From Fimbriimonadaceae bacterium (lineage in GTDB: Bacteria; Armatimonadota; UBA10988): a stretch of 63,695 bases of DNA. The translations under genes were made by a program, and so were the position numbers. The stretch lies in the NCBI GenBank assembly GCA_020850355.1, contig JADZEX010000069.1:1-63695 (forward strand), written 5' to 3'. This document shows positions 51,799-63,695 of this stretch, one piece after another (the stretch's first letter is position 1; every line of letters starts with the position of its first letter). The notes under the pieces are model-generated. The model had not been told where the DNA came from. It did not search any database and worked only from the letters and a program-made list of their open reading frames with translations.

Positions 51799-53148
51799 TC
51801 AGTCGCGCCAGTCGGCTCCCAGCACCAGCACGACGCCCGCTTCGCCCGGCTTCAGGACGGCCGCGTTGGGGCAGCGCGACGGCGTCGGGTGGCTGCTGGC
51901 CGGCACCCCGAGCGCATTGCCAACGCGTTGCGCCGCAGCCAGGTCGGCGGCCGTGGCGCCGTAGAGTCGGCTATGGGCCTCCTGGTCGACCATCGCCTGC
52001 GGCGCCGCCAACGCCGGATAGCCGCGCTGTCGCAGTTGCTGGGCGACCAGCCGTTCCAGCCCCAGCCGGTCGCTGCCGTTGTAGACGGTCACCACCGGCC
52101 GCAGACTCGGATCGGCGACGGGCGCCGCCGGCCGCGGGGCCGCGGCGCGATGCACCTCGGCGGCGGCGGTCGGGCTGGCGATGAAGTAGCTCACCCCGCC
52201 GATCATCTTGGCGCTGCCGGGCAGGCTGCCCGTCTGGAGTTCGCTGAGCTGCGTCTGCGAGACCAGGTGGCCCAGCGCCAGGACCTGGGCCGGGCTGAGG
52301 GTCGTCTCGACCCCGGCCGCGACCGCCTGTACCACCGCCGGCAGGCGCTGCAGGCGATGCGGGTCACGCAGCGCCGCGGCGACCGCCTGCAGGAACTTCT
52401 GTTGCCGGCGGATCCGACCGAGGTCGCCCTCGGCATCCTTCCGGAACCGCACGTACTGCATCGCCCGCCGGCCGTCGAGTCGTTGCTTCCCAGGCTGCAG
52501 ATCGATCCGCAGGTCCTGCGCGCGGTCGGTGTAGCGCATCCGCTTCTCGACGGCCAACTCGACCCCGCCGAGGGCGTCCACCAGGCGTTCGAACCCGGCC
52601 AGGTCGACTCGCACCACGTGATGCAGCGGCAACTGCGTGGCGTTGGCCACTGCCTGCGCCAGCAGGGCGGCGCCGCCGCGGTGGTAGAGGGCGTTGATCT
52701 TGTGGGCACCATCGGCCAACTGCACCCGCGTGTCGCGCGGAATGCTGAGCAGGCTGAGGCGCCGGGCCGCCAGGTGGGCGGTCAGCACCATGATCGTGTC
52801 GGTGCGGTCAGCGCCCGCTTCGGCGTCGGTGCCAAGCAGCAGCAGATGCACCGGATCGGCACCGAGCAGGCTCTTGCTGGCGCTGGCGGCGGGTTCCTGG
52901 GGGCGGCTGGCGCTGGCCGGCTGACTGGCGCTGAGGGGCTGGGCCAGCGGTGGCGTGGCCGGGGCGTAACGCAGGCCGAGCCAGCCGGAGCCGCCCAGCA
53001 GGAGCAACAGCAGCAGCCAGCCGGGGCCGCGCAGGCGGTTCCGGCGGCGCCGCGGCTGCCGCGGTTGGCGCGGTGGCGGATTCCCGCCCGACCGGCGCCT
53101 CTGCTGGTTGGTCCGTTGCTGCCTCACCTCGCGCCGGCCTCCACCCAC
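51799..53148 (-). CDS. LytR-CpsA-Psr (LCP) family protein with LytR_C domain
   Basis: A 449-residue membrane-anchored protein. A basic, Arg-rich cytoplasmic tail (~1-42) precedes one membrane helix (~44-60). The LCP domain has LLLGTDAEAGADRTDTIMVLT, SLLSIPRDTRVQL and KINALYHRGG, with YVRFRKDAEGDLGRIRRQQKFLQ near the end. A C-terminal LytR_C domain begins at PVVTVYNGSDRLGLERLVA. LCP enzymes transfer undecaprenyl-linked glycans onto the envelope, so this is a candidate ligase for the glycan made at 9208-19173 (inference). The GTG start at 53148 is uncertain; GTG 53128 would shorten the basic tail. Confidence 0.9.
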   Translation of the reverse strand: MGGGRREVRQQRTNQQRRRSGGNPPPRQPRQPRRRRNRLRGPGWLLLLLLLGGSGWLGLRYAPATPPLAQPLSASQPASASRPQEPAASASKSLLGADPVHLLLLGTDAEAGADRTDTIMVLTAHLAARRLSLLSIPRDTRVQLADGAHKINALYHRGGAALLAQAVANATQLPLHHVVRVDLAGFERLVDALGGVELAVEKRMRYTDRAQDLRIDLQPGKQRLDGRRAMQYVRFRKDAEGDLGRIRRQQKFLQAVAAALRDPHRLQRLPAVVQAVAAGVETTLSPAQVLALGHLVSQTQLSELQTGSLPGSAKMIGGVSYFIASPTAAAEVHRAAAPRPAAPVADPSLRPVVTVYNGSDRLGLERLVAQQLRQRGYPALAAPQAMVDQEAHSRLYGATAADLAAAQRVGNALGVPASSHPTPSRCPNAAVLKPGEAGVVLVLGADWRD

Positions 53149-53162
53149 GGCTTGGTTCCAAG

Positions 53163-53759
53163 TTAGGCACTACGGTACAACCCGAGTTGCGCGATCCGCA
53201 AGGCCACCGCGTCCGGCACGAGGTAGCGAATCGACCGCCCCGCCGCGAGATCCTCGCGCAGGTTCGACGAGGAGAGGTCGAGCAACGGCAACGGCACCGT
53301 GTCGACCGCCGCGCGGATCGGCTCCGGGAGCCCCTCCAGCAGGTCCTCGCCGGACCACCCCGGCCGCGCCGCGACGGCCAGCCGGCAGCGCGTCAGCAGC
53401 TCCGGCCAACGCCGCCAGCGGGGAAAGTCGCGCAGCGCGTCGGCGCCCAGGATCCACCACCACTCCGCCGGCGTCGACTCGCGCTGCAGCGCGGCGACGG
53501 TCTCAATGGCGAAGCTGGGGCCGGGCCGGTCCAGCTCGATCCGGCTGGCGGTGAACTCCGGCCGGCCGCCGAGCGCCGCCGCCAGCAGCTCCCATCGCGC
53601 GGCGGCCGGCGCCCGCGCGGCGTCTTTGAGGGCCGGCTGACCGCACGGAATCCAGATCACCGTGTCTAGGTGCAGCGTCTGCCAGGCCCGCTCAGCCACC
53701 ACCAGGTGCGCCAGGTGCGGCGGGTCGAAGGTGCCGCCGTAGAGGCCAATGCGCCGCAT
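53163..53759 (-). CDS. nadD: Nicotinate-nucleotide adenylyltransferase
   Basis: A 198-residue nucleotidyltransferase of the HxGH family. It has the N-terminal GLYGGTFDPPHLAHL (His15, His18), WIPCGQPALKD, WWWILGADALRDF, and LDLSSSNLREDLAAG as the ISSTxIR equivalent, then SIRYLVPDAV. It forms NaAD from NaMN and ATP. The start at ATG 53759 (GGAGG 8 bases upstream) overlaps the preceding stop by one base. It lies 14 bp ahead of the LCP gene. Confidence 0.95.
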   Translation of the reverse strand: MRRIGLYGGTFDPPHLAHLVVAERAWQTLHLDTVIWIPCGQPALKDAARAPAAARWELLAAALGGRPEFTASRIELDRPGPSFAIETVAALQRESTPAEWWWILGADALRDFPRWRRWPELLTRCRLAVAARPGWSGEDLLEGLPEPIRAAVDTVPLPLLDLSSSNLREDLAAGRSIRYLVPDAVALRIAQLGLYRSA

Positions 53760-54169
53760 CAGTCGCGCCTCCAGGGCCAGCGCCACCGCCGCCGCGGGGC
53801 CGGCGCCAGCGGGTCGTGCCAGAGCTGCTGACCGAGCAGTTCGACCGGCACCAGGCCGCGCCGCACGACTCGCCGCAGCAGCGCCAGCTCGCTGGTCGGT
53901 CCAGTCAGATCGGCCAGCGCCTCGATCTGCGTCAGCGCCTCGGCGGCGCGGCCGGCGGCGAGGTCGCGGTAGAGCTGCTCCTGCCGCGCCGCCGCCTCGC
54001 GCAGCGTCGCGGCCAAGAGGCTCAGGTCGGCTGCGCAGCGGGCGCAGCAGTCGTTGGTGAGGGGCTGCCCCAGCCGGCAGACCGGGCAGGTGAAGGTGTC
54101 GGCGTCGACCGGCTCGAAGACCGCCCAACGGTCGGGCGCCGCGGCCGGCAGGGACTCGTCAGACCCCAT
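53759..54169 (-). CDS. Zinc-ribbon-containing hypothetical protein
   Basis: A 136-residue protein with an N-terminal zinc-ribbon-like motif, CPVCRLGQPLTNDCCARCAADL (CxxC ... CxxC), followed by a long helical segment (~50-105) and a basic Arg/Trp-rich C-terminus (PRRRWRWPWRRD). It is coupled to nadD (TGATG) and overlaps the upstream isochorismatase-fold gene by 11 bp. The basic tail could bind nucleic acid or membrane. Function is unknown. Confidence 0.7.
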   Translation of the reverse strand: MGSDESLPAAAPDRWAVFEPVDADTFTCPVCRLGQPLTNDCCARCAADLSLLAATLREAAARQEQLYRDLAAGRAAEALTQIEALADLTGPTSELALLRRVVRRGLVPVELLGQQLWHDPLAPAPRRRWRWPWRRD

Positions 54170-54953
54170 CGCGCCGCTCCGCCAACGCCTGCCGCAGGTC
54201 GCTGGTAGTGGCCGTGACGCCCCACAGCATCTCGACCGCCAGGACGGCCGCCGCGGTCAACTGCCGCGACTGCCAGGTCTCGGCCGCCTCGATCGCCAGC
54301 GTCGCGTCACGCAGGAGAACCGTGTTGTAGCCGCGCTCGGACATCGCCTTGATGCCGTAGTCGCGGTAGAGCACGCACATGTTGGCGGCGAACCCGGCGA
54401 CCAGCAGGTGCAACACCCCAAGGTGGCGGCAGACGCGGTGGAGGTGAGCGCCGTTGAGCACAACCCACTCGTCGTCGTGGGGGGTCAGCGCCGGCATGAT
54501 CCGGCGGGCCGCGCAGGTCGCCGCGACATCGCGCAGGTAGTGCGGTCGCTGCAACGGGGCCCACTCGCCGGTCCGTTGGCGAAACTCCCGCGGCGGCCAG
54601 GGGTCGCCCGGCGGGCCGCCGACCCAGCCCAGCTCAGCGTCGCCCGCCAGCCGCGTCCACTGCGGATAGTGCCGCGCCTGCTCCGCGCTGGGGGCGTGGA
54701 TCACCGCGATCCCCGCAGCGCGGCAGGCCTTCCGCGTCGGGACCACCAACGCGTCGACGATCGCCGCACTCTGGCGTTCGTGCGACCGCAGCTCGTGGGT
54801 GTCCCAGCAGTCCACCAGCAGCAGCGCCGACTGCGCCGGGCGCAGCGGCCAACGGCGGGCGAGGTGGCTGTTGGCGGTCTCCTCGCCCGGCTGATCGGGC
54901 GCCGGGATGGTCGGGTACCAGCGCACCGGCAGTTCAAACGGACCGTCACTCAT
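54159..54953 (-). CDS. Isochorismatase-fold cysteine hydrolase
   Basis: A 264-residue protein of the isochorismatase/nicotinamidase-like superfamily. The catalytic Asp48 is in SALLLVDCWDTHEL and the nucleophile Cys193 is in VAGFAANMCVLYRDYG. The region that normally carries the catalytic Lys (KxxYSAF) reads DEWVVLNGAHLHRVCRHLG, apparently lacking both the Lys and the YSAF stretch. Activity is therefore uncertain, or the Lys is supplied elsewhere. ATG 54953 is chosen; the frame is open upstream. It heads the minus-strand operon containing nadD. Confidence 0.8.
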   Translation of the reverse strand: MSDGPFELPVRWYPTIPAPDQPGEETANSHLARRWPLRPAQSALLLVDCWDTHELRSHERQSAAIVDALVVPTRKACRAAGIAVIHAPSAEQARHYPQWTRLAGDAELGWVGGPPGDPWPPREFRQRTGEWAPLQRPHYLRDVAATCAARRIMPALTPHDDEWVVLNGAHLHRVCRHLGVLHLLVAGFAANMCVLYRDYGIKAMSERGYNTVLLRDATLAIEAAETWQSRQLTAAAVLAVEMLWGVTATTSDLRQALAERRDGV

Positions 54954-55017
54954 GGGTTGGCGTCCCCAGGCGGCGATGTCATTCTGCTGTCGAAGGTCGC
55001 TACCTGCGAGGTTTCCG

Positions 55018-56949
55018 ATGCCAACCAAGCGTGCGTTCTGGTGCTGGCTGTCGGTCGTGCTCGGTCTAAGCGGCTGTGTCCAGGCGCAGCAGCAGGCGGA
55101 GTGGACCGTGGTCTTCTACATGGCCTCCGACAACGACCTGGAGGCGCCGCAGATGCAGGATCTCGAGGAGATGCTGCAAGTCGGGTCGACCGCGACGGTC
55201 AACCTGGTGGCGCTGGTCGACCGCTGCGAGAACGACGACCCCGAGGGCAACTACAGCGGCGAGGCCGTCGGCGGCATCGCCAACTGGACCGACGCGCGGC
55301 TGCTGCAAGTCGACCACGGCAAGCTGACGCAGCTCGCCAACTGGGGCGAGGTCAACACCGGCGACCCGGCCACGATCACGCGCCTCCTGAAAACCGCGTT
55401 GCAGCAGTTCCCGGCGAAGCGCACCGCCTTTGTGTTTGGCGATCACGGCATGAGCTGGATGGGCGCCTGCTGCGACGAGAGCGTCGAGGACCACGACCAA
55501 CTGACGCTGGCCGAGATCGTGCGGGGCCTACGGGAAGGGCTCGGCAATCGCAAGTTGGCGCTGGTCGGGTTCGACTGCTGCCTGATGGCGAGCGTCGAGG
55601 TGGCCCACGCGATGGCGCCGCTGGCGGAGGTGATGGTCGCCAGCGAGGAGCTCGAGCCGGGCGACGGCTGGAACTACACGCCGACGCTGCAGGCGCTGGT
55701 CGACCAGCCGACGATGGACGCCGCCACGCTGGGCCGGCAGATCGCCGACCAGTTCTACGCCTTCTTCGCCAAATCGAAGGACAAGGAGACCCGCCAGACC
55801 GCGACCGGCGTGACGCTGGCAGTGATCGACCTCGCCAAGATCGCGGCCGTCACCACGGCGGTCAAGAACCTGGCCGCCGTGACCGGCGGCGAGCTGCGGG
55901 CCAACGGGCGCACGGCCTGGCTGCCCGTGGCCGAAGCACGGGCCCAGGCGGAGGAGTACGGCAAGGACGGCGACCCCGAGGAGCCGGGGATGGCCGTCCA
56001 CGATCTGGTCCACCTGGCCAGCGAACTGCAACTGGCCCACGGCGAGGGCGCCGTCTATGACGCCGCCGAGGCCGTCTTGCGGGCCGCCAAGGCGGCTGTC
56101 GTGCACACCGTCAAGGGCCGCGGACGCCCGCAGGCCAACGGCCTCAGCATCTACCTGCCGCCCGACGGCGAGACCCTCCAGAACGCCGAGCCGGCGCCCT
56201 ACAGCGAGGTCGACTTCGCACGCGCCAGCGGCTGGCTGCCGCTGGTCGAGCAGTACGTGAAGCTGGCCGACGGCGACGAGGAAGACCCGGGCCTGGCCGC
56301 GGTGGAGGTCGCCGACGGCGCCGACGATACGCTGCTGCTGACCTCGCAGGTGGACGCCGACGACCTGGACGAGGCCTCGTTCATCCTGGGCGCCACCGCA
56401 GACGACGTGACGCTGGTGCTGGGCGTGCTGCCGGCGGCGCCCGACGAAGACGGCAAGCTGGAAATGGAGTGGGACGGCGGCTGGTTCACGATCGACGACG
56501 GCGAGCAGACGCTGATCTGTCCGATCACCGCGATGGAGGCGGTCGAGGACGAGGAAGACGCCTACTTCGCGGCGGTGCCGGTCGAACTGAAGCGGCGCAA
56601 CAAGGACACTTGGGTCGAGCTGACGCTGTTCTTCTACCTCGACTTCTCGGGCGACGAGCTGGTCGGCGAGCTGGTCTACGTCTACCGCGACAGCGAGCGT
56701 GGCGAGGTCGAAGTGGAGCTGCGCGCCGGCGACACCCTGCGCCCACTTTACCTGGCTATCGACGACGAGGGCAACGAGGAACTGATCGCCAGCGACGACG
56801 CCGACGACTGGCTGACCATCGACGACCCCGACAACCTCACCGTGGGGTACGACGCGCTGCCCGGCGGGAAGTACCTCGCCGGCTTCCTGGTCACCGACCT
56901 CGCCGGCAACACCGCCGAGGACCTCGTGGAGGTCGAACTCGAAGAGTAG
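55018..56949 (+). CDS. Clostripain family (C11) cysteine peptidase lipoprotein
   Basis: A 643-residue lipoprotein (lipobox LSGC, Cys20) with a C11 peptidase domain. The catalytic His143 is in FVFGDHGMSW and Cys188 in LVGFDCCLMASVEVAHAM, matching the HG ... FDACLM dyad of clostripain. EWTVVFYMASDNDLE (~28-42) is the family's first strand. C11 enzymes cleave after Arg or Lys. The last ~210 residues are rich in Asp and Glu and contain several DD/DDxDD stretches (ASDDADDWLTIDDPDN), possibly calcium-binding beta domains. ATG 55018 is supported by GAGG 6 bases upstream. A GC-rich hairpin follows at 56957. Confidence 0.9.
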   Translation: MPTKRAFWCWLSVVLGLSGCVQAQQQAEWTVVFYMASDNDLEAPQMQDLEEMLQVGSTATVNLVALVDRCENDDPEGNYSGEAVGGIANWTDARLLQVDHGKLTQLANWGEVNTGDPATITRLLKTALQQFPAKRTAFVFGDHGMSWMGACCDESVEDHDQLTLAEIVRGLREGLGNRKLALVGFDCCLMASVEVAHAMAPLAEVMVASEELEPGDGWNYTPTLQALVDQPTMDAATLGRQIADQFYAFFAKSKDKETRQTATGVTLAVIDLAKIAAVTTAVKNLAAVTGGELRANGRTAWLPVAEARAQAEEYGKDGDPEEPGMAVHDLVHLASELQLAHGEGAVYDAAEAVLRAAKAAVVHTVKGRGRPQANGLSIYLPPDGETLQNAEPAPYSEVDFARASGWLPLVEQYVKLADGDEEDPGLAAVEVADGADDTLLLTSQVDADDLDEASFILGATADDVTLVLGVLPAAPDEDGKLEMEWDGGWFTIDDGEQTLICPITAMEAVEDEEDAYFAAVPVELKRRNKDTWVELTLFFYLDFSGDELVGELVYVYRDSERGEVEVELRAGDTLRPLYLAIDDEGNEELIASDDADDWLTIDDPDNLTVGYDALPGGKYLAGFLVTDLAGNTAEDLVEVELEE

Positions 56950-56956
56950 CCGCGGC

Positions 56957-56984
56957 GCCGGGTGCGGGGGGCCCCGCACCCGGC
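56957..56984 (+). terminator. GC-rich hairpin between clostripain and M28 remnant
   Basis: A near-perfect palindrome (GCCGGGTGCGGGG / CCCCGCACCCGGC) with a 2-base centre begins 8 bp after the clostripain stop. It has no T tract on either side, but lies between convergent genes and could act on both. Confidence 0.55.
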
Positions 56985-57005
56985 CGGCCGCAGGTCAGAC
57001 TGCGC

Positions 57006-57345
57006 TCAGAGCGCCTTGGCGCAGGCCGCCAGGCCCTTCACCAGTTCGGCCATGTCGTTGTAGTTGAGCTTCTCCCAGGTGTCGGCGGCGGAGTGGTAGT
57101 TGGGGTCGTACTGGTACCCCGGGCTGCTCACCAGCACCGCCGCATCGCCCTGCTTCCAGAACGCCGCGTGGTCGCCCCAGGCCAGATCCGGGTCACGGCT
57201 GGAAAGGCTCCGGGTGGGCAGGCTGGTGCCCTTCGGGAAGGGCCCGACGACTTTTGGGCCAGGCTCTCGGAGGCGCTGTTGGCACCGACCAGGGCGTAGC
57301 GGTAGCGGCTCGAGAACCAGCCGCACATGTCCCACATTACGGCCG
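57006..57345 (-). pseudogene. Frameshifted 3' remnant of an M28-family zinc peptidase
   Basis: The last ~110 codons of an M28 aminopeptidase are split between two frames. The upstream part reads MWDMCGWFSSRYRYALVG, like the NxDMxG strand of M28 enzymes, then ASESLAQK. The downstream part reads VVGPFPKGTSLPTRSLSS, then GDHAAFWKQGDAAVLVSS and YHSAADTWEKLNYNDMAELV, the family C-terminus with its final zinc His. The two join in frame if one A is added to the AAAA run near 57263. The N-terminal domain with the other zinc ligands and catalytic Glu is absent. Codon-like sequence ends near 57345, at the tail-module junction. Confidence 0.75.
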
Positions 57346-57503
57346 CGCAGCGATCCTGTTTCGAACCGTCTGGATCAAATGTTTGCGTTTCTTGATCCGC
57401 TCCTGGAGCGGCCTCGCGAGCCCGTCGCAAGAGTTTCGCAACAAGCTTACCGATTCTACGGTCCGCCAGCGGTCCTGATGGGGTGAGGGATCGGAGTGGC
57501 GTG
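57346..57503. other. Junction between the peptidase remnant and the tail module
   Basis: This ~158-bp stretch is AT-richer than everything around it and has no coding-like third-position GC in any frame. It contains a short hairpin, CCGCTC/GAGCGG, near 57400. No integrase, tRNA or direct-repeat attachment core was recognised. Confidence 0.5.
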
Positions 57504-58364
57504 ATGCGGACAGCCGTGACAGCGGAGCAGGTGCGGCGGGCGTTGAGCGGCCCGGTGGCACCGGCCTGGGTGGACGGCGTCTTCGCCGCGGCGCCGAACG
57601 TGCGCTGCTGGCTGGGACCGGTCACCCTGGGCGATGTCTGCCGCTGGAGCTGCGGACCAGCGGCCTGGCGCTGGGTGGGCGGACAGGCGGTCTGTGACCT
57701 GGCGGCGGTGGCGACGGCGCGCTTGAACGCCGCGGTCTGGGCCGATGCCGCAGGCACCCCGCTGGGCGGGCCGGGCGGCGTCGATGTCACCCGCCTGCCG
57801 GCGGGCGTCGTCGACCGGCTGCTGCTGGCCAGTGATCGCGCCACGGGATACCTCCCCGACCCGCCGCCGAGCGGCCCGCCGCAGGGCCTCAGCGGCTATC
57901 ACCAGCCGACCGTCGTCTGGTTGCGCGGGCTCTTCGCGAGCGACCGCGAGTTGACGGTGGGCGTGCGGCCCTACGACTTCGCCACCCTCGCGGCGGCGGA
58001 GGCGGCAGCCACGGTGCGGCTGCCGGAAGGGGGCGAGGCGCGGGTCGAGGTGCTGGCGTGGCCGGTGATCGTCGCGGCGGCCCTCTGTGGCAGCGACGAC
58101 CCGGCCGCGCCGCCCCTCTTGACTCCCCACGAGGCGCGCCACTTGCCCTACGGCGCGGCGCGCAGCGTGGTGGAGGTGGCCGATCGGCTCAGCGAACTGG
58201 GAGGGCCCGACCCGGGCGTGCAGTTTCCAGACCACTCCGCGGGGCCGCGCCTGGACCAGCTTGGCGCTCTGGCTGCTGCGGACGACCGGCCGCTTCCCGA
58301 GCGAGCTGCGGGTGCCGCCGGCGGAGCTGCTGTGGCTCTACCGCGCCGCGAGGTGCAGCGATGA
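57504..58364 (+). CDS. Tail-module protein of unknown function; 3' end possibly frameshifted
   Basis: A 286-residue protein starting at ATG 57504 (GGAG 7 bases upstream). It is mixed alpha/beta, with WVDGVFAAAPNVRCWLGPVT, WLRGLFASDRELTVGVRPY and VLAWPVIVAAALCGSDDP. It matches no family I recognise; it belongs by position to the tail module. Its last ~50 codons are suspicious: in this frame third positions lose the GC bias. The +1 frame reads SLALWLLRTTGRFPSELRVP and ends at 58368 with normal bias. Either the sequence carries a one-base indel near 58190-58205 or a frameshift is used. The annotated stop forms ATGA with the next start, favouring this frame. Confidence 0.55.
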   Translation: MRTAVTAEQVRRALSGPVAPAWVDGVFAAAPNVRCWLGPVTLGDVCRWSCGPAAWRWVGGQAVCDLAAVATARLNAAVWADAAGTPLGGPGGVDVTRLPAGVVDRLLLASDRATGYLPDPPPSGPPQGLSGYHQPTVVWLRGLFASDRELTVGVRPYDFATLAAAEAAATVRLPEGGEARVEVLAWPVIVAAALCGSDDPAAPPLLTPHEARHLPYGAARSVVEVADRLSELGGPDPGVQFPDHSAGPRLDQLGALAAADDRPLPERAAGAAGGAAVALPRREVQR

Positions 58365-59020
58365 GTGAGCTGCAACACCGCGTCCGGAGCCGCTCCGCGG
58401 GCCGCCGTCTGACCCTCTGGGAGCGCCGAGCCACGGCCTTGGCGGCGCAGGCTGCCGCAGGCGGTCGCCGCGGGCCGGCCAGTACCCCGCGGCGGCCCGA
58501 CCGCCGGGCGGCGTCGGTTGGCCCGTCACCGGCCCAGCCGCGACAGACGTGGCGCAGCGCGGCCGCCGGGGTGGCGCCGCTGGTCCGTCCACCGGCCAGC
58601 GGGGTCGGCGCCGCACCCATCCGGGTCGCCGCGGCCAGCCAGCCGCTGCCCCGCGCCGGCCGCCGCCGTGCGGCGCCCGGACCGCTGGCCGCCGCCCTGC
58701 ACCGGCACCGGTCGGCGACGCCAGCCCGCGCCCCGCTGCCAGGCCGCGCGGCAGCCACGGCCCCGGGCGCGGTCGCGCCCCGCGGGTCGGCCACCGCTGG
58801 CCCGGCGCACGGCCGGGCCAGCGCCCCGCCACGGCGCGCGGCGGCGGTCCTGGCGGTCTCTCCGCCCGGAGCCGGCTCGGCGCCAGCCACGCTGCGGTCG
58901 CCGGTGGCGACACGGGCTGGTTGGCAACCGGCCGCGCCTGGCCCGGACGGTCGCCTGGCCGCTCCCGAGGAAACCGCCCCGGGGCGGCGCTGGCGTTGGC
59001 TGCTGGGGAGCCTGTCATGA
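58361..59020 (+). CDS. Arg/Ala/Pro-rich disordered tail-module protein
   Basis: A 219-residue, strongly basic and low-complexity protein (many RR, RRP, APG runs) that ends in a short hydrophobic segment (RWRWLLGSLS). No fold is apparent. Both ends use ATGA overlaps (58361, 59017), so it is translated as part of the chain. It could be a structural connector or a small tail-assembly protein. Coding is supported by continuous frame and operon overlaps, not by homology. Confidence 0.6.
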   Translation: MSELQHRVRSRSAGRRLTLWERRATALAAQAAAGGRRGPASTPRRPDRRAASVGPSPAQPRQTWRSAAAGVAPLVRPPASGVGAAPIRVAAASQPLPRAGRRRAAPGPLAAALHRHRSATPARAPLPGRAAATAPGAVAPRGSATAGPAHGRASAPPRRAAAVLAVSPPGAGSAPATLRSPVATRAGWQPAAPGPDGRLAAPEETAPGRRWRWLLGSLS

Positions 59021-61290
59021 GCGAGCAGCTCTTCCTGGCCGAACCGCGCCACGTTCTGGCCTCTCCGGGATTGGGCTTGCACCTCGACTTCGCGGCCGAG
59101 TCGGCAGCGCGGGTCGAACGGCTGCTGGCGCACGGCGGGCTGACCGCTGAGGGGCTCTGGTACGACGCGGTCGCCGGACACTGGATGGGCCAGCCCTCGC
59201 CGACCCTGCAGGCGATGGCGGCGGCGTCCTACGATCTGACGACCGCGAGCGCCTGGAGCGCCGTGGCAACGACCCTCAACGCGGCGGCCCAGCCGGTCGA
59301 CTGGCTATCGCACCACGCCGCCGGCGCCTGGAGCCTGATCGAACGTTCGCCCGCGCCGCTGGGGCAGGGCCGCTACCTGGCCATCTTGACCTACGACACT
59401 GCCGCGGAGGCGGGCGGGGTTGGGACCGGCTCGCCGCTGGTCGTTGAGTTCGGGGGCGTCTGGCGGCTGGAGCTGCACCGCAGCGGGCAGGCCGTGCTGC
59501 AAGAGGTCGCCCGTGATTCCGCCACGCTGCTGCCCGTCCGGACCACCTGTGCCCGCTTCCCCTGGCTGGTCCAGCCCGACTTCAGCGACCGTGACGGCAT
59601 CCTGCATTGGCTCTGGATCTACGAATGCCGCTCCCGGCTGGTGATCCGGAATCTGGCGCCGGGCCTCGGCGGGCAGCGCGCTGGGGTGGTCTGGTACGAC
59701 CGCGGCGCGGTACTCGATCCGGAGCTGGTCGAACCCGCCGGCCAGCCCGTCCGGCACGCCCTGCGCGCCGCCCCGTGGCGGCTCAGCGGCAGCGGCTATG
59801 TGGCGCTCAACCTCTCGCCACAGGCCTTCGTGCCGGGCGCCAGCCGCCTCGCGATGCCGCCCACCCGGGTCCTTGGCGGCAGTCTCCAGCGCAGCCGCGG
59901 CACCGGCCACGGCGCCGCGGTCGGCCGGGCCGTCGCCACGCTGACGGTCCGCGACGAGCATGGCAACGTCTGGCCCGGCGGCAGCGGCACGCTCGGCGAG
60001 CCGCGGCAGGCCGTCGGCTGGGACGTCGAGTGGACCACCACCGCCAGCGACACCTTCTGCCTGACCGCCGTCAACGTCGCGGTGCCACCCAGTTACCGCG
60101 CCGACGGCAACGTCGGAACCGACGTGATTGCTGTGGCTGGCGTCGCCGACAAGCAGGTGCAGGTATTTCGCGAAGGCGACCTGACCCGCGAGCGGCTCTC
60201 GGCGAGGCTGCTGGCGATGGACCTGAACCTGGCCTCCTACTGCCAGTCGAACTTGCTCGTGCGGTACGTCGTGGACGGCGTGACGCGGTTCCGGGGCCTG
60301 ACGAACCGCGCGACCTGGACTGTCGCACGGGACAGCACGCAGCCGACCGGATACCTCGATCTGGAAGCCGAAGGCCTGTGGCGGCGGTTCCGCAAGGCGC
60401 TTTGGCCTGGCGGCCAGGCGTTCGACGGGCGGCTGCTGACCGACTGCCTTGCCGACCTGCTCGCGGCGGCCGGACTGGCCAGCACCGATTACGAGTTGGC
60501 CGCCTGCTCCTTCGTCTTCCCGAAGCCGCCCGATGGCGAGGCCCCGGCGCTGGTCTTCCGGGCAGGCACCAGCGTTGATCGCATCTTGGAGGAGCTGGCC
60601 GCCAAGTGGTACGGCCGGACGCTGCGGCACTACTTCCGGCTGAGTGATGGCAAGTTCGTGCTGGCGTACACCACCGCCGGCAGCAGCGTCGCCAGCTTCT
60701 ACGAAACCAGCGCGGCAGCGGTCACGGCCGGGGTGCCCTATCAGACGATCCGGGCTGGCAGCTACCAAGAGACGCTTGACGACTCGGAGATGTACAACGC
60801 GGTCACCGTCGTCGGGCAGGACAGCGGCGGCAACCCGCTGCTGGCGAAGGCGGTGGACTGGGCAAGCATCAACGACTCCGCGGTCTGGAACTACGTCGGG
60901 GAGCCCTGGCAGTTGGTGGTGATTGACCCGGCGCTCTGCACGCAGGCGGCGGTCAACTTCGTCTGCCGCAGCCTGTTCGACCGGCACCGCTACCCGCGGA
61001 TCCATGCGCAGTGGAACAGCCTGCGGGTCGACCTGTTTCCGGGCGACGTGGTGACGTTGGTCGGTCCAAGCTACGGCGACACCTACATCATCCGCGGGGT
61101 GGCCCTGGACAAGAGCACCGCCGGCGCCGGGGCGGCCCCGGCTGGCATCGCCAGCTACGCCGCCGAGTTGATCCGCACGGTGGCCGAGGAGGGCGGCGGC
61201 GAGGAGGGCGGCGGCGGCGACCCGGAACCGGATCCTGGCGGCGGAGGTGGTGAGGAGCCGCCCGGCGGCGGTGGAGTGACACCCGGATGA
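59017..61290 (+). CDS. Phage tail / baseplate hub-like protein
   Basis: A 757-residue protein with a mostly beta N-terminal half (~1-350) and a second half resembling tail hub proteins (gpD/gp27-like): MYNAVTVVGQDSGGNPLLAKAVDWASIN, and later RYPRIHAQWNSLRVDLFPGDVVTLVGPSYGDTYIIRGVALD. That final block is typical of the hub domains that end in a short beta barrel. The last ~40 residues are a Gly/Glu/Pro-rich flexible tail. ATG 59017 and the stop both overlap neighbours (ATGA). Homology is by pattern; a spike-needle protein of PAAR/VgrG type is not visible in the window. Confidence 0.7.
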   Translation: MSEQLFLAEPRHVLASPGLGLHLDFAAESAARVERLLAHGGLTAEGLWYDAVAGHWMGQPSPTLQAMAAASYDLTTASAWSAVATTLNAAAQPVDWLSHHAAGAWSLIERSPAPLGQGRYLAILTYDTAAEAGGVGTGSPLVVEFGGVWRLELHRSGQAVLQEVARDSATLLPVRTTCARFPWLVQPDFSDRDGILHWLWIYECRSRLVIRNLAPGLGGQRAGVVWYDRGAVLDPELVEPAGQPVRHALRAAPWRLSGSGYVALNLSPQAFVPGASRLAMPPTRVLGGSLQRSRGTGHGAAVGRAVATLTVRDEHGNVWPGGSGTLGEPRQAVGWDVEWTTTASDTFCLTAVNVAVPPSYRADGNVGTDVIAVAGVADKQVQVFREGDLTRERLSARLLAMDLNLASYCQSNLLVRYVVDGVTRFRGLTNRATWTVARDSTQPTGYLDLEAEGLWRRFRKALWPGGQAFDGRLLTDCLADLLAAAGLASTDYELAACSFVFPKPPDGEAPALVFRAGTSVDRILEELAAKWYGRTLRHYFRLSDGKFVLAYTTAGSSVASFYETSAAAVTAGVPYQTIRAGSYQETLDDSEMYNAVTVVGQDSGGNPLLAKAVDWASINDSAVWNYVGEPWQLVVIDPALCTQAAVNFVCRSLFDRHRYPRIHAQWNSLRVDLFPGDVVTLVGPSYGDTYIIRGVALDKSTAGAGAAPAGIASYAAELIRTVAEEGGGEEGGGGDPEPDPGGGGGEEPPGGGGVTPG

Positions 61291-62759
61291 CCGGCACTCG
61301 CCTGACCTGGCAGTGGGACTTCAACACCGGTGCGGCCCGGCCGGACGACGGCCGCGTGGAGCTGCACCTCGCCGCGCTGGATGCCGATTGGGCGGGACTG
61401 CCGAACGACCCGCTGGTCTTCGATGTCGGCACCGTCGACGCCGGGGCGCAGACCGCCGCCGTGCAGATCAGCGCCAATGGCAACAACGCCACGCCGACCA
61501 CGGTCAGCTACGCCAGCGGCACCTGGATCTGCCGCCTGGAGCTGGAGGTCGGCGCACACTGGGCCTTCCCGTCCGGCGCGGTGCAACCGGCGATGCTCGC
61601 CCGCGGCTACGTCAACAACACGCTGGTCGGGCAGGTGACCCTCGACAACCCCGGCGTCACCAACGGCGTCGAGTGGGGCGTCTGGCGTGGCATCAAGGTC
61701 AAGCACGACCTGCCGACCTACGGCGGCAGCCCGTCGGCCAACTGCGGGTACATCCTGCACGGTCCGTGGGACAGCGACCTCAGCGGCGGCGACCTGTCGG
61801 CAATCACCGGCGGCGGCACCACGGCCTGGCGGCCGCTGCGGCCCCCGCTGGCCGGCGGGCTGTTGCGGCTGGCCGACGGCACCGAGCTGGTGGCGCGGCC
61901 GGACCCGGACAGCGGCGACACCTACCTCGATGGCGTCGGCATCTGGCGGCGCACGTCGCCGGCGGCCGCGTGGTCGAAGGTGCGCTGCTCCGACTACGCC
62001 GCCGACAACGCCCTGCAAGGCCCGGCGCACTGCGTGCTGGCCGCCTGGGAACCTTTCGCCGTGCTGCTCGACAGCGGCTTCTGGTCTGGCGACGGCGGGG
62101 CGACCTGGAGCAGCACCGCGCCGACCGCCGGCACGCCGGCCGCCGTGCTACGGGACCTGCTGGGCGGCGACCAGGCGCTGCGGCCGGCCGGGCTGCGGCA
62201 ACTGCACACCGCGCAGATCCTCGGCGCCTCGACCGGCAAGCTGCGTGTCAGCGGCTTGACGCAGACCGCCGACGGCACGGCTCTGACGTGGACCAACGCC
62301 GACCAGGTGCTGGCCAGCCCAACGGAGCTGTACACCACGCCGACCGGCTGGTTGTGGCAGCGCGGCGACGGCCGGATCGTGGTCGAAGCGCTGGTCGAAG
62401 ACGGCGTGCTGGAGTTCACCAGTGCCGACCCGTTCGGCGCCGGAGCGTGGGCGGTCGAAGCCGGCACCGTCGCCTGGACAGCCGGCACCGGACTGCTGGT
62501 CAACTCGGCGCACTGGCGCGGGCGCGACGGCCTGCACGGCGTTGCAGGCTGGCAGCAGGGCGACGGTCAGGTCAACGTCCTGTGGCGCGTCGCGCCCGGA
62601 GCGGACTGGGAAGGCCAGGCGGTCGCCACCGAGGCGACGGCGGTGCAGCCCTACCTGGTCGAGCGGCGCGACGGCCTGTGGGAGTGCGGCTGGTTGGTCG
62701 CCGGGACTTGGACGCGCTACACGGCGCCCTGGCCTGGCGGGACTTGGAGCGCCGCATGA
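61287..62759 (+). CDS. Beta-rich tail-associated protein, possibly BNR/propeller-like
   Basis: A 490-residue protein with an N-terminal beta domain (~1-130) and repeated short sequences of the type LLDSGFWSGDGGATWSSTAP, followed by further W-rich strands (TGWLWQRGDGRIVVEAL, YLVERRDGLWECGWLV). SGDGGATW is an Asp-box/BNR-like motif seen in beta-propellers of sialidase or photosystem-assembly-factor type. The function is likely host-surface recognition or structural (inference from position ahead of the fibre gene). Coupled at both ends by ATGA. Confidence 0.6.
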   Translation: MTGTRLTWQWDFNTGAARPDDGRVELHLAALDADWAGLPNDPLVFDVGTVDAGAQTAAVQISANGNNATPTTVSYASGTWICRLELEVGAHWAFPSGAVQPAMLARGYVNNTLVGQVTLDNPGVTNGVEWGVWRGIKVKHDLPTYGGSPSANCGYILHGPWDSDLSGGDLSAITGGGTTAWRPLRPPLAGGLLRLADGTELVARPDPDSGDTYLDGVGIWRRTSPAAAWSKVRCSDYAADNALQGPAHCVLAAWEPFAVLLDSGFWSGDGGATWSSTAPTAGTPAAVLRDLLGGDQALRPAGLRQLHTAQILGASTGKLRVSGLTQTADGTALTWTNADQVLASPTELYTTPTGWLWQRGDGRIVVEALVEDGVLEFTSADPFGAGAWAVEAGTVAWTAGTGLLVNSAHWRGRDGLHGVAGWQQGDGQVNVLWRVAPGADWEGQAVATEATAVQPYLVERRDGLWECGWLVAGTWTRYTAPWPGGTWSAA

Positions 62760-62986
62760 ACCGCCTCGACCGGCTGGCCGCGGACCTCGGCGCTGGCGTG
62801 CGACGGCAGGCCACCGGCAGTCGGCGGCCAGCGGCTACGGCCTTTGCCGCGCAGGCGCAGGTCGACGCGCTGGCGGCAGCACACGGCGCCGCGCCGGTCG
62901 CCGGCCAGGCCCTCGGCCCGGGCGACGGCACGCTGTTCTTCATGCTCGACATGTCGGCCCTCGACGGCGCCGACGGACTGGAGTGA
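62756..62986 (+). CDS. Small tail-module protein
   Basis: A 76-residue protein starting at ATG 62756 inside the previous stop (ATGA). The N-terminus is basic (MNRLDRLAADLGAGVRRQATG) and the C-terminus ends in FFMLDMSALDGADGLE. Short genes of this type sit before fibre genes in many phages, but I cannot name a family. Confidence 0.55.
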   Translation: MNRLDRLAADLGAGVRRQATGSRRPAATAFAAQAQVDALAAAHGAAPVAGQALGPGDGTLFFMLDMSALDGADGLE

Positions 62987-62989
62987 GCG

Positions 62990-63695
62990 ATGGCCCTGAG
63001 CCTACGCGACGGACTCGCTGTCAGGGGAGCCGCCGGCGACACCGTGCCGGCGATCGAGCTCAACGCGGTGCTGGACTGCCTCACCGCGCTGCGCCGCGCC
63101 GTCTGGGACGCCCTCGGCGGCGAGGGGATCTACTCCGGCGGGGCGTCCGTGCTGGCCGACATCGTGACGGGCACGACCTACCCGGCCTTGACCGCGGTGC
63201 TCTATGACGACAGCGGCGTGCCGTGGTCCTTCGTCAAGGCGACCGGCACGGCGATCACCTTCACCAACACCTCCGGCGCCTGCACGCTCTACCTCGTGCC
63301 AGCCCTGCTGACGGGCGTCAGCCCGTCGGCGGCGGCCGGTGGCCGGGGCGACTTCAGCCTGGTCTGCCAGCTCACCGCCAGCGCGGCCCCGGCGCACAGT
63401 CTGGTCCTTGGCGCGGGCACGGTCGCGGCCAGCGCATTCACGACCTGGACGCCGGCGAGCGTGTTCATCGACCCGCTCACGACGCTCCTCGGCGTGCCGG
63501 CGACGCGCACCCTGACCGCTGGCACCGGGCTGAGTGGTGGCGGCGACCTGTCGGCGAACCGTACGCTTAGCATCGACCAGGCCGCCGCGCTGACCCTGAC
63601 GGCGCTGTCGCCCTACGCGGAGTTGTCCTGCATCCTGACGAGTGACCAGGGCACGGTGGCCAGCGGCGACTTCGTGGCGGTCAACTGGACCAACG
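62990..63695 (+). CDS. Phage tail-fibre-like protein, 3' end cut by window
   Basis: At least 235 residues, running off the right edge with no stop. ATG 62990 follows GGAG and lies 3 bp after the previous stop. The segment TLTAGTGLSGGGDLSANRTL (residues ~178-197) is a characteristic fibre repeat found in tail fibres of many phages (LTxGxGLxGGGDLSxNRTL). Short beta segments (VWDALGGEGIYSGG, DIVTGTTYPALT) precede it. Part of the likely adhesive tip lies beyond the window. Confidence 0.75.
   Translation, partial: MALSLRDGLAVRGAAGDTVPAIELNAVLDCLTALRRAVWDALGGEGIYSGGASVLADIVTGTTYPALTAVLYDDSGVPWSFVKATGTAITFTNTSGACTLYLVPALLTGVSPSAAAGGRGDFSLVCQLTASAAPAHSLVLGAGTVAASAFTTWTPASVFIDPLTTLLGVPATRTLTAGTGLSGGGDLSANRTLSIDQAAALTLTALSPYAELSCILTSDQGTVASGDFVAVNWTN

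Follow-up and report, generated by a model that had tools for sequence, protein, structure and literature searches.

The analysed stretch of DNA (the window: the whole of contig C73, 63,695 bp, from a draft genome of 6.67 Mb in 117 contigs) ends in a compact operon that is almost certainly a phage tail module, and a set of terminase, portal, capsid and tail tube genes lies on a second contig of the same genome, C79. The best explanation of these two loci, which is given about an even chance, is a two-locus domesticated phage resembling a gene transfer agent (GTA), in which both units function as a pair and the tail has been exchanged with phages. Judged from its genes, the two-part set is a candidate GTA not described before, as opposed to a dead virus. 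A more specific proposal, placed somewhat short of even, is a GTA lineage new to Armatimonadota, built of two transcription units cut between the tail tube and chaperone genes, the head being inherited with the host for as long as the family has existed while the tail is replaced by exchange with phages, perhaps in step with recipient surfaces. If this is true, a head cluster that occurs throughout a family while its tail stands apart adds a new phylum to the GTAs, separate evolutionary paths are possible for the head and the tail of a domesticated phage, and looking for the other half becomes a simple recipe by which such systems can be told from dead prophages.

The tail operon at the end of the window

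The operon is 7.3 kb long and intact, made up of the last 6.2 kb of the window and the initial 1.3 kb of contig C70; the two contigs share an exact overlap of 127 nt, which is 63569-63695 in the window and the first 127 nt of C70. The exactness of this overlap indicates that the assembly graph branches at the join, and the second branch is absent from the source genome bin. Similarly, the end of C70 is common to the end of C69 in the same orientation, pointing to unresolved assembly-graph branches there too. The reference for the gene order below is L053 (L055 is the same contig), a siphophage contig of 28,486 bp from IMG/VR (IMGVR_UViG_3300025018_000456). The features are as follows:

57033..57364, minus strand: M28 peptidase gene remnant limited to the C-terminal ~40% and frameshifted, with the tail operon in place of its 5' part
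57504..58364, plus strand: g1, 286-aa protein in the tail assembly chaperone position; its homologue precedes the tape measure protein (TMP) gene in L053
58361..59020, plus strand: g2, 219-aa Ala/Arg/Pro-rich open reading frame in the tape measure slot, ATGA-coupled on both sides
59017..61290, plus strand: tail hub, 757 aa, with a gp27/gp44/VgrG fold in its C-terminal half
61287..62759, plus strand: BNR-like tail-tip protein, 490 aa (the BNR label is that of the initial annotation)
62756..62986, plus strand: g5, small conserved tail-tip module protein, 76 aa, with a homologue in L053 (E 5.7e-5)
62990..63695, plus strand: first 235 residues of the tail fibre (352 aa in all), in frame across the join to C70:480
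C70:492-836: 114-aa gene following the fibre
C70:836-1270: lysin candidate, 144 aa, following the 114-aa gene

All six window genes from 57504 to the edge are open, with zero internal stops. The initial annotation had described them as six genes chained by ATGA overlaps; four consecutive overlaps do join the first five, but the sixth, the fibre gene, starts 3 nt past the stop of the fifth. Its remark on host-like composition agrees with a GC content of 73.1% in the module vs 71.9% in the window and a GC3 of 0.84–0.93 in the module genes vs a host mean of 0.91. The sequence past 63695, which it had proposed to read for head genes, completes the fibre and contains the 114-aa and 144-aa genes, and from C70:1350 on it contains ordinary host genes (arrestin-N-like, copper-ATPase-like, a beta-helix-like protein and uvrB, the last being 71–75% identical to the uvrB of the family); no head genes adjoin the operon. 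No tube or sheath gene was found in the tail locus. A repeat search for att sites or duplications at the operon edges returned weak, chance-level repeats only, an Rfam scan of 52000-63695 gave zero matches, and promoter and terminator consensus scans found nothing, as expected at 72% GC.

On the upstream host side lie M28 and C11 peptidase genes. The M28 gene is broken, as had been claimed: residues ~186–304 are recognisable against an intact 304-aa relative in family genome G003 (contig C59), to which the remnant is 72–74% identical across two frames, and its match to PF04389 (E 0.0014) is below the cut-off. The missing 5' part was not found in the examined stretches of C73, C70 and C79.

Sequence libraries (Pfam, PHROG, NCBIfam) are weak or negative on the module, with the exception of the fibre motif, and its assignment came from comparison with relatives. 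The local alignment score of g1 with the gene preceding the TMP gene of L053 is 135, vs 43 ± 7 (maximum 82) in 500 shuffles; no homologue at E < 0.001 was found among 291 Armatimonadota genomes. The function of g2 is doubtful: it is composed of 25.6% A, 16% R and 14.2% P, its coding score is weak (0.04 per codon vs 0.16–0.33 in the other module genes scored), and its similarity to the L053 tape measure protein and to the open reading frame upstream of the hub on contig C75 of family genome G001 is at shuffle level. Three TMP queries found no tape measure protein in the source genome, in a search that covered the genome incompletely for further loci such as TMP and holin genes.

The hub is 48% identical to that of L053 and 45% to that of G001:C75; a tblastn search of 50,697 annotated phages gave zero matches. 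Its AlphaFold model is of moderate confidence (pLDDT 64), and the C-terminal half matches Mu gp44, T4 gp27, VgrG and PVC hubs in the PDB by Foldseek (E 1e-12 to 1e-10, down to 1.5e-12 at best; probability 1.00). The fold is that of the T4 gp27/Mu gp44/VgrG superfamily, which includes the tail-tip hub of HK97-type siphophages, while Pfam, PHROG and NCBIfam are negative or very weak, so that the sequence family is not detectable. The hub-like call is thus borne out, and the alternative named with it, a secreted non-phage family, gives way to phage hubs. The BNR-like protein is 30% identical over 461 aa to the L053 protein in the same place (E 3e-32), and small proteins occupy the place of g5 in related tail modules too. 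The N-terminal 161 aa of the fibre are 60% identical to L053 and 47% to G001:C75; zero matches were obtained in a fibre search against IMG/VR. The TLTAGTGLSGGGDLSANRTL segment, already singled out in the initial annotation as a fibre signature, matches phage tail families (PHROG, E 7e-6 to 9e-6). The 144-aa protein reaches NlpC/P60 at E 0.1 only, with zero PDB matches, and calling it a lysin is a guess from motifs and position.

The head and packaging unit and its inheritance

When terminase, portal and capsid of L053 were joined as one query, the source genome was matched only on C79, in agreement with the earlier statement that the window holds no head gene; three other genomes of the family were matched as well. 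All head genes of C79 are on one strand:

L073:10113-10556 (C79): small terminase subunit, TerS
L073:10549-11706 (C79): large terminase subunit, TerL
L073:11723-12928 (C79): portal
L073:12925-13983 (C79): protease
L073:14000-15307 (C79): capsid
Between capsid and tube (C79): 89-aa protein, 200-aa head-tail adaptor and 155-aa protein
L073:16748-17146 (C79): tail tube, 132 aa, last gene of the unit

These genes match Terminase_6N/6C, Phage_portal, Peptidase_S78, Phage_capsid and head-tail adaptor families, and in TerL the Walker A/B and nuclease motifs are still in place. For the tube, whose model is of modest confidence, the structural matches are tail tubes, with that of RcGTA among the highest-ranking. 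The flanks are host genes, with a MATE-type transporter upstream and a lipoprotein-like gene and rlmN downstream. Neither an integrase nor a replication gene was seen beside the C79 unit or the C73/C70 operon.

The family is represented by four draft genomes, the source (G000) and G001, G002 and G003. In G000, G001 and G003 no chaperone, TMP or hub gene follows the tube; instead, a strong hairpin stands there (z -4.5, -3.4 and -7.8, respectively), the hairpin sequences being different. Because hairpins are found after the tube and also between tube and chaperone in L053 (z -5.6), the head/tail split appears to follow a long-standing border separating two transcription units. The head genes themselves are rearranged in G002 and G003. 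In G002, the tube gene comes directly after the capsid gene; in G003 (L075:3079-4971), prohead protease and major capsid protein are fused in one open frame, with the tube gene directly after it. A further split of the head unit is seen in the genus of G003, where TerS and TerL (G003:C27, L076:9320-12078) stand apart from portal, capsid and tube, beside a possible transposase.

The head unit of the family is very probably a vertically inherited, domesticated one. This rests on its presence in 4/4 family genomes (one capsid each, 67–72% identical), its single clade, its host-like divergence, and its occurrence in only 7 of 287 other Armatimonadota, whose head homologues are distant (<= 38% identical). 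In the most closely read of those seven (G246), head and hub genes lie in one prophage-like stretch. In a tree with 22 IMG/VR terminases and L053, the TerL of the family form one clade (99/99), and the two genomes of the same genus pair within the family clade for both TerL (99/96) and capsid (99/98); support for the family capsid clade is 89/92. TerL, portal, capsid and tube are 60–74% identical within the family, vs 68–74% for UvrB and 62–65% for rlmN. The genes flanking the head unit differ between genomes, and host gene order is also scrambled, except beside nadD, so flank synteny is evidence neither way. In addition, pN/pS is uninformative, as synonymous sites are saturated at 90% GC3, and the amino-acid carbon cost, whose lowering marks GTAs in Alphaproteobacteria, shows no consistent saving relative to phage homologues.

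Proposed pairing of the two units, known systems and competing explanations

L053 carries both halves contiguously. Its head genes run TerL-portal-protease-capsid-88aa-adaptor-157aa-tube, the terminase end being cut by the contig, and continue past the tube as chaperone-TMP-hub-BNR-83aa-fibre, followed by an amidase gene. The head and tail genes of the source genome are the same and in the same order: C79 corresponds to L053 up to the tube, C73/C70 corresponds to the chaperone onward minus the TMP, and the window hub, BNR-like protein, small protein and fibre pair one to one with L053 genes. TerL and portal are each 51% identical between the two, and the capsid 46%; the TerL and capsid of L053 fall outside the family clade. 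L053 differs from the source in being contiguous and in having genes for a 909-aa tape measure protein, a gp10-like protein, an amidase and a RecT-like protein, plus early genes. That C79 and C73/C70 complement each other gene for gene against L053, apart from the TMP, speaks for functional pairing, as does the intactness of the module genes while the adjoining M28 relic is frameshifted; the missing gp10-like gene, the grouping of the window hub with phage, the TMP not found, the weakly coding g2 and the rearranged head genes of G002 and G003 speak against it, and the draft state of all four genomes is a further weakness.

The tail unit has another history. The hub is encoded in 13 of 291 Armatimonadota genomes, the source included, and several of these hubs belong to prophages that also encode terminase, portal, tape measure and endolysin; an alignment of the 13 hubs diverges too strongly to serve for collection scans. 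In the hub tree, the window hub and that of L053 are sisters (99/99), with the G001:C75 hub outside; a second hub type is common to G001 (C187) and G003 (C144), so that G001 carries two different tail units, and these hubs together form one clade against other Armatimonadota phages (100/99). The hub tree thus indicates that tail units are exchanged or have been acquired repeatedly. Hub history is the strongest point against the two loci as one co-evolving element, and it may reflect either tail exchange in a GTA-like system or independent prophage relics.

In the two-locus reading, the window would hold the tail transcription unit (chaperone to lysin) and C79 the other unit (small terminase to tail tube) of a domesticated siphophage, the head unit having passed down vertically from a time before the family divided into its three or more genera and the tail unit having been exchanged with related phages. 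We infer that the units work together, form a particle and package DNA. TerS and TerL would load DNA through an HK97-type portal into an HK97-type head, the tube from C79 and the hub from the window would form a short non-contractile tail, the fibre would bind the recipient, and the lysin would release or admit the particle; g2 might replace the tape measure protein, or the tail might be tapeless.

The 2022 classification (PMC9662315) treated GTAs with a known genetic basis as three groups, each exapted independently; known GTAs have lost replication genes, their loci are scattered, and they are easily mistaken for remnants (PMC9662315, PMC11841831). RcGTA (Rhodogtaviriformidae) has structural and packaging genes of caudoviricete origin, ~15 kb in all, that are distributed over several host loci and vertically inherited (PMC9662315). 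Its tape measure protein has ~216 aa and its peptidase 150 aa (PMC7296036), close to g2 with 219 aa and the lysin candidate with 144 aa, a likeness in size that is a lead only; structural matching of the C79 tube places the RcGTA tail tube among the best. RcGTA belongs to another phylum and another phage ancestor, and unlike it, the source system has its head/tail core itself cut in two, has a g2 that is not helical-looking and is known from genes alone. Among the GTA features given in PMC9662315, caudoviricete-derived structural proteins are present, the genes are fully endogenised at several loci (the C79 unit and the C73/C70 operon each lie between host genes), and co-diversification is seen in the head unit and not in the tail unit. 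Filing the system as a GTA is not justified, because three defining features (packaging of mostly random host DNA, a head too small for its own genes, delivery of DNA to other cells) are matters for experiment and co-diversification is found in only one unit. GTA family models gave zero matches against the source module, and no paper linking a GTA to Armatimonadota was found in the literature searched.

The initial annotation had left three readings side by side, and the GTA-like domesticated element emerges as the best supported because of the C79 head cluster, which lies outside the window and is common to the whole family. The prophage end becomes the main rival, well below even and still a serious possibility: the operon would be what remains, from tail to lysis genes, of an L053-like prophage that inserted near the M28 gene and lost its left half and TMP, and it would be functionally unrelated to a separate domesticated cluster on C79. 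Such a remnant would agree with the affinity of hub and fibre to L053, the truncated and frameshifted M28 gene at the left edge, the missing TMP and the two different tail units in G001. However, the remaining genes are intact and ATGA-coupled even across the lost TMP, the fragment sets in at precisely the point where the head unit stops, the L053 terminase/portal/capsid query finds no further head cluster, whether intact or decayed, and no integrase or att repeat was seen. An ordinary active prophage, with contiguous head, tail, integration and replication genes, is not what the locus contains, and the adjoining capsid and terminase cluster that the initial annotation had named as a refutation is absent.

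A split produced by assembly or binning, that is, one prophage spread over several contigs or a foreign tail contig, is improbable. The draft is in 117 contigs, and a contig break with a graph branch falls inside the fibre gene, but host genes stand on both sides of the operon (M28 and C11 peptidase; copper-ATPase and uvrB on C70), C79 is bounded by the MATE transporter and rlmN, GC and codon use equal those of the host, and related genomes are split likewise. Still less probable is the tailocin-like, headless particle of the initial annotation. Hub, fibre and lysin candidate without adjoining head genes recall one, but a tailocin has a tube, plus a sheath if it is R-type, with hub and fibre and no head or terminase; here the tail locus has neither sheath nor tube, and the only tube found adjoins terminase, portal and capsid on C79.

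Variant tail modules and lone hub genes

Related tail modules differ in gene content around the hub and fibre. In G001:C75 (L032:5033-7117), a two-domain GT2+GT4 glycosyltransferase gene overlaps the stop of the fibre gene and is followed by other genes, with no lysin seen. In G248 (L036:3754-8116) and G249 (L035), a 411-aa DNA-methyltransferase-like gene stands between chaperone and hub, the expected place of the TMP, and no tape measure gene was seen in that stretch; both clusters are prophage-like, terminase and portal being seen in G248, while G249 is a short contig. Meanwhile, three genomes of another Armatimonadota genus (G209-G211) each have one intact hub-like gene surrounded by ordinary genes, with no adjacent phage genes:

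L038:8482-10431: hub-like gene
L039:16659-18581: hub-like gene
L040:205-2151: hub-like gene

The lone hub of these genomes is possibly a domesticated hub.
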